Below are positions 7,071-16,377 of a stretch of 36,012 bases of DNA, in pieces. The notes beneath the pieces were generated by a model. The model was given only the letters and a program-made list of their open reading frames with translations. It had not been told where the DNA came from and ran no database searches. Location: IMG/VR virus record IMGVR_UViG_3300043425_000084, positions 1 to 36,012 of that record; one strand, given 5' to 3'. The translations under genes were made by a program, and so were the position numbers. This stretch comes from a virus. How positions within the stretch are numbered: position 1 is the first letter of the stretch; every line of letters begins with the position of its first letter.

Positions 7071-7266
7071 GTTACCCTTCTGTGAACGAACCTAGCCCAA
7101 CCGAGGTTCGCCTTCAAAACTGTTACCCAACTGAGTTACAGAACCCGACAGTCGTTCAAGGAATCGGCACTATCTTCGCCACCGATCTTGGGCTATTACA
7201 TCCTTTAAACCCCTAGTAACCCTTGTATCTTGACCGCTAGTGGTTGGAGATGTCCCCAGTCAAGAC
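7065..7266 (+). ncRNA. GC-richer island: candidate structured RNA or short gene
   Basis: This stretch is clearly richer in G and C than its surroundings and holds no clear gene. Possible pairings: a stem of CGAACC (7087-7092) with GGTTCG (7105-7110); its loop bases TAGCCCAA (7093-7100) pair with TTGGGCTA (7188-7195), giving a pseudoknot; ATCGG/CCGAT at 7163-7167 and 7182-7186; and a 3' hairpin TCTTGAC/GTCAAGA at 7228-7265 with further inner pairs. It could act on either strand, on the minus strand as the 3' region of the repressor mRNA. Against RNA: a 44-codon GTG frame (7082-7216) is open here, with repeated PTE..LQN words but no ribosome site. Confidence 0.4.
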
Positions 7267-8788: not shown

Positions 8789-8808
8789 TAAATAATCAAG
8801 GGGGAATT

Positions 8809-9567
8809 ATGGAAGTGAAAAAGAATTATGTGGCTGAATCAGGACATTGGTATTGTGCCAAGACTGGTGAGCCAAGATATACAGTTATTTCCAAATCTAC
8901 AGGAAAGGAACGACCTACAACTCTTGCAGATGCTAGGAAAGAAAATTTAGTTCCATCAGTAACCACGCTGTTGTCGCAAATCAGCAAACCGGGGCTAACT
9001 AATTGGCTAAATCAACAGTTATTATTGGCGGCCCTTACTTTGCCACGCATAGAAGGTGAATCCGAACAGGATTGGATTGACCGAATTATGGTTGATAGTA
9101 GGTCTGCGTCTAAAGAAGCAAGCCAAAGAGGAACTGACATCCATGCAATCATTGAGCAGTTTTATAGGGGTGATTTCTATCTGCCCGAATATCCTGTGTA
9201 TGTGCATAAAGTAAATCAGGCTTTGGTAGATGCTTTTGGACCTCAAAATTGGATTGCAGAAGAATCGTTTGCCCATTCATCAGGCTTTGGGGGCAAGGTT
9301 GATCTGTATGCCAAATCAGGCTTTATTGTCGATGTAAAGACTACAGAAAAAGATGTGGCTGAAATCAAGCCATATCACGAGCATTTAATGCAACTATCGG
9401 CTTACCGAAATGGATTGAATTTGCCTATGGCTAGATGTGCCAATGTGTTTGTCAATGCCATAACCAATCAGGCAAGGGTCATAGAACACGCAGAAAACGA
9501 CCTACAGGATGCTTGGGAGTGTTTACAATACCTTTTGATGTTCTATAAACGAAAGAATCGTCTATAG
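8809..9567 (+). CDS. PD-(D/E)XK exonuclease (RecB/Cas4-like)
   Basis: A 252-residue protein of the phage RecB-like nuclease family. Visible motifs: the N-terminal substrate part with RPTTLADARKENLVPSVTT; motif I GTDIHAIIE at 108-116; motif II GFGGKVDL with D165; motif III IVDVKTTE with D175 and K177; and QLSAYRNG near 195-202. The D-...-D-V-K set binds metal and cuts DNA. In phages such proteins usually work as 5'-3' exonucleases with an ssDNA-binding or annealing partner, here perhaps the SSB-like protein. A strong GGGGG ribosome site precedes the ATG. Confidence 0.9.
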   Translation: MEVKKNYVAESGHWYCAKTGEPRYTVISKSTGKERPTTLADARKENLVPSVTTLLSQISKPGLTNWLNQQLLLAALTLPRIEGESEQDWIDRIMVDSRSASKEASQRGTDIHAIIEQFYRGDFYLPEYPVYVHKVNQALVDAFGPQNWIAEESFAHSSGFGGKVDLYAKSGFIVDVKTTEKDVAEIKPYHEHLMQLSAYRNGLNLPMARCANVFVNAITNQARVIEHAENDLQDAWECLQYLLMFYKRKNRL

Positions 9568-9571
9568 GGCT

Positions 9572-9577
9572 TATAAT
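9572..9577 (+). promoter_or_regulatory. -10 box TATAAT before the structured RNA
   Basis: A perfect TATAAT lies so that the predicted start, 9584, is exactly the first base of the 12-bp stem. No good -35 is seen 16-18 bases upstream and no extended -10 TG, so the promoter would be weak or need an activator. Confidence 0.4.
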
Positions 9578-9583
9578 GGCTTT

Positions 9584-9646
9584 GGGTTGGGCTTGTGCGT
9601 TACCCCCTAACGCAGGACTGATTCTCCTTCACACCAAGTCCAACCC
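9584..9646 (+). ncRNA. Strongly folded RNA element or small RNA
   Basis: GGGTTGGGCTTG (9584-9595) pairs with CAAGTCCAACCC (9635-9646) over 12 positions with one G-U pair. Inside, TGCGTTA (9596-9602) and TAACGCA (9608-9614) make a perfect 7-bp hairpin with a CCCCC loop directly stacked on the outer stem, and GGA/TCC (9615-9617, 9625-9627) may form a small third arm. GGACT (9615-9619) could instead pair with AGTCC (9637-9641), an alternative fold. There is no T run after it, so it is not a standard terminator. It lies in a 201-base gap without a gene. Too short for a tRNA. Strand of action is inferred from the operon direction. Confidence 0.6.
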
Positions 9647-9768
9647 ACCCCAACTACTGTATATCCATTCATTAGGGTTTTCCTTAGTAAATATCCCTTG
9701 TCTTATTAAGCAAAATTAATGATACTGTCTTTACTGCAATGTGCAGGGAAATTAACAAGGAAATCAAA

Positions 9769-10386
9769 ATGCCAAAAATGAAATGTGCAGATGGTAGTTA
9801 TATCAATGTAGCCCCAATTATTGAGCATCCCCATGCTTATGCCGAGGCTACTAAGGCTCGCATCATTGCTAATGCTCAAAAAACATTTTGCAGAACTTAT
9901 GCAGATCATGATGAAATCCAAAACTTTTTGTGTGCTGGTCGTGTGCATGATGACGAAGGCAATTTCAAGCACTATAAAGAAGGATTTATTGGTTCATTAG
10001 CATCTGCATTTGATTCTTATGGCAAGTTGTCTGAAAAACAAGTTTTAGCAGTTCGTAAATGTATTGCTGATCGTAATGCTCGAAAGGCTGAATGGGCTAA
10101 TAAGCAGGCTTTAATTAATGCTAAAAAACAGCATATTGGCAATATTGGTGAAAAAATTACAATAAGCATTGTATGCGTTCATGTTGTTGTGCTTGATAGT
10201 ATTTATGGCACAAATTACATTCATATTTGTGAAGATGCTAATAAAAATATTATTATTTACAAAGGCACTTCTTTAGATTTTCCAAACAAAGGTGAATCAG
10301 CAACAATTAGAGCAACTGTTAAAGAACATGGTGTTAGAGATGGAGTTAAGCAAACAGTAATTCAACGACCAAAATTGGTTCAATAA
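9769..10386 (+). CDS. Conserved phage protein with possible OB-like C-terminal domain
   Basis: A 205-residue protein. The first part (to about 100) is helical with FCRTYADHDEIQNFLCAGR, GFIGSLASAFDSYGKLSEKQVLAVRKC, a pattern seen in large phage and bacterial replication-related proteins. The last 80 residues (GEKITISIVCVHVVVLDS ... IRATVKEHGVRDGVKQTVIQRPK) look like a small beta barrel of the OB type that could bind nucleic acid. The ATG at 9769 has AAGGA eight bases upstream; a more upstream ATG at 9739 lacks one. Known only as a conserved protein; nucleic-acid binding is inferred. Confidence 0.68.
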   Translation: MPKMKCADGSYINVAPIIEHPHAYAEATKARIIANAQKTFCRTYADHDEIQNFLCAGRVHDDEGNFKHYKEGFIGSLASAFDSYGKLSEKQVLAVRKCIADRNARKAEWANKQALINAKKQHIGNIGEKITISIVCVHVVVLDSIYGTNYIHICEDANKNIIIYKGTSLDFPNKGESATIRATVKEHGVRDGVKQTVIQRPKLVQ

Positions 10387-10399
10387 TTTAGGGGGATTT

Positions 10400-10513
10400 A
10401 TGAAAGACTTTCGTGGAGAATGGATTGATATATTAGTAGGTGCATTAGCAGGTCTGTTAATGTTTGGCATACCTGCTATTGTTTATGTATGGAGAACAGG
10501 GGGCATATCATAG
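10400..10513 (+). CDS. Very small single-span membrane protein
   Basis: A 37-residue protein with one hydrophobic helix at about 9-30 (IDILVGALAGLLMFGIPAIVYVW) between charged ends. AGGGGGA lies a few bases before the ATG at 10400. The stop lies 25 bases inside the next gene. Its size and position in an early operon recall small phage inner-membrane proteins of unknown role. Confidence 0.6.
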   Translation: MKDFRGEWIDILVGALAGLLMFGIPAIVYVWRTGGIS

Positions 10514-13725: not shown

Positions 13726-16377
13726 TTAAACTGTATAAACTGCCTCTACTCTTGTTCCTGCAGGTAAACCTGTTGCAAATACGATTGATGTTCCACTTGT
13801 AATAGTTACATCACCACCTGCACCACCAACCATTTCAACACCATTACAGAACACCATTATTTTTCCTGATGTGTAAGTAGTAGAAGTTGTAAATGTAGTC
13901 TGTGATGCAGTAGCAGTAAATGTGTCATAGATTGTTCTGCCTACAACAACTCCTAACGATACTTGGCTTGCATTAGATGCAGTTCCTGTCAATGATGCAG
14001 TAATAGTTCCTGCACTAAAGTTGCCACTTGCATCACGCTGAACTAAAGCACTTGCAGTATTAGCACTTGCCGCTACTAATGATGTTCCCCAAGCAGTTCC
14101 AGTAGATACTGCTACACCTGATGCAGGATATGTTGTAGGTCCTGTAGGCCCAGTAGGTCCGACATTACCTTGAACACCTTGAATACCTTGAGTTCCTTGG
14201 ATACCCTGTGGTCCTGTCGGTCCAACTACACCTTGGTCGCCTTGTGGTCCTGTCGGTCCTACGACACCCTGTGGTCCAGTTGGTCCTACTGCACCCTGTG
14301 GACCTGTAGGTCCTACGACACCTTGAATGCCCTGTGGTCCTGTTGGTCCTTGTGGTCCTGTATCACCTGTATTGCCTTGAATACCTTGAGTTCCTTGCGG
14401 ACCTGTAGGTCCAACAACTCCTTGGATTCCTTGTGGTCCTGTAGGTCCAACAATTCCTTGTGGTCCTGTAGGTCCTACTGCACCTGTATTTCCTGTTGGT
14501 CCTGTAGGTCCTATTGCACCTTGAGCACCTGTTGGTCCAACTTCACCTTGTATTCCTTGCTCACCCTGAATACCCTGAACACCCTGTGGTCCAGTAGGTC
14601 CATGATCGCCCTGAATACCTTGTGGTCCTGTTGGTCCAGTTGGTCCTGCCACAGTAGAATTTGCACCTGTTGCACCTGTAGGTCCTTGAATACCTTGGCT
14701 ACCTGTTGGTCCTTGAACACCTTGTAAACCCTGTTCGCCTTGAATACCTTGTATGCCTTGAGGACCTGTTGGACCAACTGCACCTTGCGATCCTGTTGGA
14801 CCTGCACTACCTGTTGGACCATTCTGCGTATAGGTTACTTGCGTAATAGTTGCAATCATACTTGGCGATACAGGAGTTGTTGGGGTTGTGCCTGCCGCCA
14901 AAACTTCTAAACTTACGGCAGTATCTTCTGTTTGCCAATAAAATTCAATGTAATCATTAACACTTAATGGCATTACATAGTTCCAAGCGGCAATAATTTG
15001 TCCGTTTACTGAACCTTGTTTGCCCGGAACTGCTACTGCACCTCTACTGTCAGCAATATCAACATTATTTTTTTTCAGCCAAAACGATGTTTCAACAATA
15101 GCATTTGAAGTATTAACTGCTTGTGCAGAAAATTGAATGTTATAAACACCTGTTTCAGTAATGTTTAATCGAGAATTGTTGCTTAGATTTACACCATAAT
15201 TGCTAGGATCATTTTCATTAAATGTAATTGCATAAGCAGTAGTTGTATTTCCTGCTACTTGATTTTGTGTAGACCAAAATGATCCCCAATGTGCAACAGT
15301 TCCACCTGCACCGGGATTTCCTTGTGGACCTGTCGGACCTGTAGAACCAATGCTTCCTGTTGGTCCAACAAAACCTTGTGGACCTTGAATTCCTTGTGGA
15401 CCTGTTGGACCATCTATTCCCTGAATGCCTTGTGGACCAGTAGGACCAGTTGGACCTGCTATTGTGCTTGCCGCACCTGTAGCACCTGTAGGACCTGTAA
15501 TAGAGTTTCCTTGCATTCCTTGTGGACCAGTAGGACCAATATCGCCTACATTACCTTGGATACCTTGAACACCCTGTGGACCAGTAGGACCAATATCGCC
15601 TTGTATGCCTGTAGGACCAGTAGGACCAACATTGCCTTGATTTCCTTGAGCACCTGTTGGACCTAACGGACCTTGAGTGCCTGTAGGACCAACATTACCT
15701 TGTATGCCTTGAGCACCAGTTGGACCTTGTAAGCCTTGTTCGCCTTGGATTCCTTGAATGCCTTGAGGACCAGTTGGACCATGATCACCTTGAATACCTT
15801 GAGCACCTGTAGGACCAGTAGGACCTGCAACAGTAGATGCTTGTCCTTGTGGACCAGTTGGACCAGTAATAGATAATCCTGTAGGACCTGTCGGACCTGC
15901 TTGTGTAGATGCAGGACCAGTAGGACCTGTGTTACCTACAATACCTTGAGGACCTTGTATTCCTTGAGGTCCAGTAGGACCTGCAATACCTTGACTACCT
16001 TGATTGCCCTGAATACCTTGAGGACCTGTAGGACCTGCGACAGTGCTTGGCGAACCTGTTGCACCTGTTGGTCCAGTTGGACCAGTTCCCGATGGACCTG
16101 TAGCACCTGTTGGACCTGTTGCACCCATGCCTGTAGGACCAGTAGGACCTGTGCCACTAGGACCAGTTGCACCTGTTGGACCTGTAGCACCTGCCACACC
16201 TGCCGATCCTGTAGCACCTGTAGGTCCTGTAGGACCACCAAAAGCACCTGTTGGACCTACTGCACCAGTTGGACCTGTTGGACCACCTGCAGGACCTTGT
16301 GGACCTGTAGGACCAATAATGCCTTGATCGACAATTAAAGTAACTTGATTAGCGTTTTCGTAAGAAATAGTTGGCAT
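13726..16377 (-). CDS. Collagen-like tail fibre with embedded globular domain
   Basis: An 883-residue fibre. Residues about 15-355 and 518-750 are Gly-X-Y triplets, mostly GPTGP and GPQGIQG, which should form a trimeric collagen-like helix. Between them, about 358-517, lies a beta-rich domain ([12 protein letters not shown] ... [16 protein letters not shown] ... [10 protein letters not shown]) resembling a TNF/C1q-like jelly roll. The C-terminal 130 residues contain a fibre segment ([28 protein letters not shown]) and a beta-strand end domain. Likely a receptor-binding or accessory side fibre. The triplet DNA is repetitive, so length variation is expected. Confidence 0.88.

Follow-up and report, generated by a model that had tools for sequence, protein, structure and literature searches.

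A putative phage small RNA family encoded 3′ of a PD-(D/E)XK nuclease gene, with C-rich loops complementary to Shine-Dalgarno sequences

The folded element and its neighbours

In the 36 kb stretch of a virus record analysed here (the window), a tightly folded element lies between two genes at 9584-9646 on the plus strand. The locus raises the question of whether this is an RNA made separately, to which of the flanking genes it belongs, and what its unpaired segments might bind. The features concerned are:

8799-8804, plus: ribosome-binding site of the nuclease gene, AGGGGG type, candidate target of the C5 loop
8809-9567, plus: PD-(D/E)XK nuclease gene, 252 amino acids, phage exonuclease family, directly upstream of the RNA
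9572-9577, plus: TATAAT, -10 box, 4 nt past the nuclease stop codon (overlapping the stop in most relatives)
9584-9646, plus: body of the small RNA, predicted 5′ end at 9584, from fold z-score and family comparison
9584-9595, plus: 5′ arm of stem P1, GGGUUGGGCUUG, from P1 covariation in window-type and type C sequences
9596-9614, plus: hairpin P2, UGCGUUA-CCCCC-UAACGCA, arms 9596-9602 and 9608-9614
9624-9632, plus: segment CUCCUUCAC, anti-Shine-Dalgarno-like, partly inside a weak third arm
9635-9646, plus: 3′ arm of P1, CAAGUCCAACCC, from P1 covariation
9647-9649, plus: ACC, following P1 in nearly all members of the family, type B being the exception
9672-9687, plus: TTAGGGTTTTCCTTAG, imperfect palindrome beginning the control region of the next transcription unit
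10390-10395, plus: AGGGGG ribosome-binding site of a small gene at 10400, candidate target

The nuclease matches PHROG 298 (exonuclease, E 7.5e-14) and, slightly under that family's cut-off, Pfam PDDEXK_1 (E 2.7e-4). The gap 3′ of its gene holds the RNA, and the next gene, of unassigned function, starts at 9769. P1 has 12 positions with a single G-U pair (9591/9639), the CCCCC loop of P2 occupies 9603-9607, six of the seven P2 pairs are closed by RNAfold, and the weak third arm, AGGA/UCCU, is predicted to pair 9614-9617 with 9625-9628. The -10 box, the stem with its one G-U, the C5 hairpin and the third arm are thus all present as the first-pass annotation had described them. Position 9584 is 7 nt beyond the last base of the -10 box, an ordinary start distance; a -35 hexamer is not evident upstream of the box. 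The ACC after P1 was considered as a tRNA-acceptor-like tail.

The fold, which had been called stronger than chance, has a minimum free energy of -29.4 against -17.9 ± 2.7 in dinucleotide shuffles (z -4.25), with none of 200 shuffles as good, and just 2 of 10,272 sampled 63-nt windows from both strands of the contig fold at least as stably. The CCCCC loop has an unpaired probability of 1.00 in the window, and of 0.99-1.00 across the folds of the window, its nearest relative L105, type C and L227. The earlier statement that the element is not a terminator is fair because no U-tract or T-run follows 9646 in the window; a terminator that could set the 3′ end of a small RNA was likewise not found in the window.

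Two of the earlier proposals fared less well. An alternative pairing of GGACT (9615-9619) with AGTCC (9637-9641), suggested as a regulatory switch, can form in the window and is lost in L105 (GGATT/AGTACC), so this pairing is unsupported. Control of the gene at 9769 had also been suggested, and that gene has a conserved upstream region of its own past the RNA, with TTAGGGTTTTCCTTAG and the CTGCAATGTGCAG leader. No RNA was seen directly upstream of relatives of the 9769 gene elsewhere, and model R1 (see below) found none in the 12 such relatives tested; a TTAGGG...CCTA-type box precedes relatives of this gene that have no RNA there. By position and comparison, the RNA is linked to the upstream nuclease gene and not to the 9769 gene. 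In the window, 9672-9760 holds TTAGGGTTTTCCTTAG, a weak promoter-like TTGTCT-17-GATACT and the CTGCAATGTGCAG leader hairpin, and similar elements occur upstream of 9769-gene relatives.

Elsewhere in the window, Rfam identifies a Betaproteobacteria-1 RNA (RF02932, 89.8 bits) at 7143-7266 on the minus strand, with further matches in L037, L047, L049 and L101. This small RNA, present in the same phages as the nuclease-linked element, differs from it in place and family, and its presence suggests betaproteobacterial hosts. An 883-amino acid protein with many collagen-like GPTGPQG repeats, encoded at 13726-16377 on the minus strand, is probably a tail fibre or appendage protein.

Conservation of place and fold

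The first-pass annotation had named conservation and covariation in relatives as the check on its RNA, and both were found. Relatives were collected by nuclease similarity and not by the element itself, which keeps the sample free of selection for the fold. Four aligned nucleases yielded 80 IMG/VR loci, and a second alignment, begun from a phage record, another 80 that partly overlap the first. A genome contig search added seven nuclease relatives, with the RNA in L105 alone (nuclease identity 79%); in the five others checked (L108 left out), the gene is followed by no gap that could hold one. L105 (JAHEYD010000010.1) is filed under an archaeal metagenome-assembled genome (Nitrosotalea), which is probably a binning error for a phage contig.

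More than 100 IMG/VR contigs carry a -10 box, a stem and the CUCCUU/UUCAC segment at the same place at the 3′ end of this nuclease gene. Directly past the nuclease stop, an exact TATAAT is present in 94 of 106 loci, with near-matches in most others, and CUCCUU in 89 of the 106. The sequence past the box differs greatly between types, and in all types P1 starts about 3-6 nt past the box and closes some 30-60 nt further on. Box and stop codon share letters in most loci (ctaTAAT). The window and L105 end the nuclease gene with TAG and carry the box 3-4 nt further on, with the same spacing between box and stem. CUCCUUCAC is identical in L105, L104, L025, L064 and L189; types A, B and E have CUCCUUG, and in some type C members the segment is degenerate with UUCAC retained.

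The stems covary strongly. P1 was scored on nine distinct sequences of the window type and type C: pairing is 98.6% and covariation 0.299, against 0.132 ± 0.033 in shuffles, none of 500 reaching it; the shuffles do not keep relatedness and so do not give probabilities, and slid controls, which do keep it, reach at most 0.108. Fifteen distinct sequences of types A/E and others are 84% paired, against 62%, with a covariation of 0.530 (shuffled 0.180 ± 0.032; slid controls at most 0.196). With the P2 arms aligned by hand, all 11 distinct sequences form the inner pairs, which are of many types. Between the window and L105, P1 and P2 both show compensatory U-A to C-G changes, and AUUCUCCUUCACACCAAGU is identical.

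In two DNA-pattern scans independent of the nuclease, 50 matches of the first and 47 of the second fall at the nuclease 3′ end, the latter overlapping contigs already sampled; the remaining matches (4 and 24) are chance matches without a stem. Every stem-forming match adjoins the nuclease 3′ end, and these scans place the RNA nowhere else. An exact-pattern scan with TTCTCCTTCACACCAAG gave seven matches, all by chance. In a maximum-likelihood nuclease tree, all RNA-bearing loci fall in one clade (100/98), with the RNA-lacking L023, L024, L106, L107 and L109 outside it; within the clade, an RNA could not be recognised in L118, and that of L101 is a different one. Since relatives carry the element at the same place with compensating mutations, the RNA family is very probably real in placement, fold and strand. 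A small RNA starting at 9584, as the first-pass annotation had proposed, is supported by this comparison: relatives keep the -10 box, the spacing from box to stem and, through compensatory change, the stems.

The family is apparently undescribed and new to Rfam. Rfam 15 gave no gathering-level matches in the window and ten relatives, except RF02932 elsewhere, and none on the RNA in six relatives at E 0.5; within 9400-9800 there is one chance match (mir-458, E 2.2), on the adjoining stretch. Searches for DNA similarity to the element in phages and plasmids returned chance-level matches only, and a description of this RNA family was not found in the openly licensed literature. Model R1 was built without window-type sequences; it misses the window, L105 and type C and so does not cover them. 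Run on 30 sources it had one match, L019 445-511 (E 0.017), in a phage contig, with a GAA/AGUA scaffold, a TATATT box before it, a tRNA-like stretch after it and no CUCCUU, which may be chance.

Given its place, the element could instead belong to the 3′ end of the nuclease mRNA, with a fold that ends, protects or destabilises the upstream transcript. It does always lie directly 3′ of the nuclease on the same strand, its stem is long and stable, and a T-run follows soon after the stem in a few members (L113, L116, L227 and L027). This is nevertheless unlikely: the -10 box keeps its fixed distance to the stem even where the stop has moved (window and L105), type B has a separate intrinsic terminator (CGCCCCGTAATTGGGGCG-TTTT) directly after the RNA, and a terminator or processing site has no need of conserved unpaired CUCCUU/UUCAC or CCCCC.

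C-rich loops and ribosome-binding sites

The reading that we tentatively favour is that the phage transcribes a small RNA independently and that C-rich loops of this RNA base-pair with Shine-Dalgarno sequences rich in G. A structured RNA of ~63-75 nt would be made from its own -10 box, abutting or overlapping the nuclease stop codon, with the first base of P1 as its 5′ end. In a freshwater phage clade, always 3′ of one PD-(D/E)XK nuclease gene, members of this family would use a rigid P1/P2 scaffold to present two C-rich loops, CCCCC (9603-9607) and CUCCUU (9624-9629). These may cover G-rich Shine-Dalgarno sequences of phage mRNAs, the nuclease AGGGGG first, and so lower translation. Sequence comparison supports the family with its strand, place and fold; we infer its production as a separate transcript, its pairing inside the cell and the repression that would follow. 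The secondary structure is conserved, as for a phage small RNA, and the accessible C-rich loop is complementary to a candidate target, an observation of complementarity only and 6 bp long at the window nuclease site (CCCCCU/AGGGGG). The case for an own promoter is the -10 box conserved at a fixed distance. Against this reading, the pairing at the window nuclease site is short, GGGGG is itself a strong Shine-Dalgarno sequence, and the window has neither a -35 box nor a terminator.

The distribution of the loop bears on this reading. The members with a CCCCC loop (the window and L105, type C, and L227) occur in phages with GGGGG ribosome-binding sites, including the nuclease's own, and members without the loop mostly do not. 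In type C, GGGGG is 20-fold enriched near start codons (264 of 791 occurrences; 11.2 per kb versus 0.56 elsewhere). Upstream of starts the enrichment is 9-fold in the window and L105 (2.7 versus 0.31 per kb) and 14-fold in L227 (4.65 versus 0.34), and types A, B, D and E have 0 to 0.15 start-proximal GGGGG per kb. Such sites precede 12.5% of starts in type C, 5.8% in the window pair, 0.6% in type A, none in types B, D and E, and 1.1% in unrelated phages (type C versus D plus L101, Fisher p 0.002, with loci that are not independent). At the nuclease gene itself, nearly every type C member and the window have AGGGGG as the ribosome-binding site, L105 has GGGGGGG, and the remaining types use some other sequence. 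In the window, GGGGG sites precede the starts at 8809, 10400, 6358 (minus) and 26523 (minus), and at the site before 10400, UUAGGGGG is complementary to CCCCCUAA, the loop with its flank. Complementarity between loop and Shine-Dalgarno sequence extends to 8-9 bp, for example AUCCCCCUG/CAGGGGGAU in L197.

When own and swapped complementarity were compared across all loci, swapping lowered it and 6 of 5000 permutations reached the observed mean, with related loci treated as independent; within types there was no signal. On the tree the association reduces to a few events, one gain in the subclade of the window and type C and one joint absence in D/L101, and L104, which lacks a CCCCC loop and has CCCC and UCCC runs only, still has GGGGG at two sites. 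The signal thus lies between types, and the match of loop and Shine-Dalgarno sequence is regarded as real at the type level, resting on about two evolutionary events.

For the second C-rich segment, a host target has also to be weighed: CUCCUU might cover AAGGAG sites on host mRNAs, with the phage using other sites for itself. AAGGAG is found at 0-1% of starts in types A, B and E, compared with 5-6% in unrelated phages and in RNA-lacking relatives, and because it is so rarely used there, CUCCUU could not have the same own-gene role in these types. Set against this, phages of the window type, type D and L104 use AAGGAG at 4-14% of starts, and CUCCUU has been lost in several type C members, so that a small RNA aimed at the host appears decidedly improbable. 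Types A, B and E keep CUCCUUG in the RNA despite their own rare AAGGAG sites.

Protein binding, tandem RNAs and known systems

Between P1 and the inner stem, GAA opposite AGUA is nearly invariant in types A/E, L104, L133, L134 and L173, and in types A/E we take it to match the bulged-G/loop-E motif. This, with the confinement of the RNA to one nuclease clade and its place beside that nuclease, could mean that the adjoining nuclease is bound or inhibited by the RNA, or that the RNA binds another protein through the loop-E-like motif. However, the RNA-bearing nucleases are no longer than their RNA-lacking relatives and have no extra domain, and the motif is absent from window-type and type C first RNAs; we regard protein binding as very unlikely. 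That the element acts as DNA, as an origin or packaging hairpin, is highly improbable: compensatory change would preserve a single-stranded DNA fold too, but the G-U pairs here are A-C on the other strand, and the conserved -10 box and the type B terminator lie on the same strand.

Type C loci often have a second or third RNA in tandem, neither of which is in the window. The second has the P1-GAA/AGUA-inner stem scaffold with different apical loops and, in most cases, an ACC tail (L073 2193, L189 275 on the minus strand, L207 2594, and two copies in L101, at 4493 and 4525). The third, of ~95 nt, consists of P1, three inner stems and a pseudoknot of AAGCCGC with GCGGCUU, followed by a T-run, and occurs at L039 2479-2574 and in type C/D loci such as L064 4960, L199 3633, L025, L101 and L073. 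Its 27 pairs are 96.3% paired, 15 of them changed on both sides, a result reached by none of 500 shuffles, and Rfam returns nothing for it at E 0.5 in L026, L049 and L053. This third RNA is possibly more interesting than the nuclease-linked element itself.

Among known systems, the lambda sib site acts on the int transcript through RNase III. Like the RNA described here, this retroregulator is structured and sits just 3′ of a phage recombination gene; a -10 box conserved at the stem, and unpaired motifs that are conserved too, set the present RNA apart. The c4 antisense RNA of phages P1 and P7 has defined antirepressor targets. Like the RNA proposed here, c4 (RF01695; PMC12197685, PMC2864571) is a small phage-encoded antisense RNA controlling phage genes, but position and architecture differ and RF01695 gives no match. 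Masking of Shine-Dalgarno sequences by C-rich motifs in small RNAs is established for RsaA (PMC3961350). The Staphylococcus aureus RsaA/RNAIII class (PMC3961350, PMC2837412) shares with the phage RNA a structure with unpaired C-rich motifs complementary to Shine-Dalgarno sequences; those RNAs are chromosomal, from other hosts and without shared sequence, whereas the RNA here is phage-encoded, shorter and tied to one gene, and its pairing is predicted.

A wider reading, which goes beyond pairing at single sites and is speculative and somewhat unlikely, is that a new small RNA family has been inherited with one nuclease and that its loop co-evolves with the Shine-Dalgarno repertoire of the phage. 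The GGGGG sites would then form a regulon that the phage's own RNA shuts off, and in some relatives this RNA would be the first of two or three in tandem, including a new RNA with a pseudoknot. So clear a comparative record is rare among phage small RNAs, and freshwater phage contigs commonly carry the family. If the wider reading is true, a phage would use the letters of its ribosome-binding sites to bring its own genes together under the control of an RNA.
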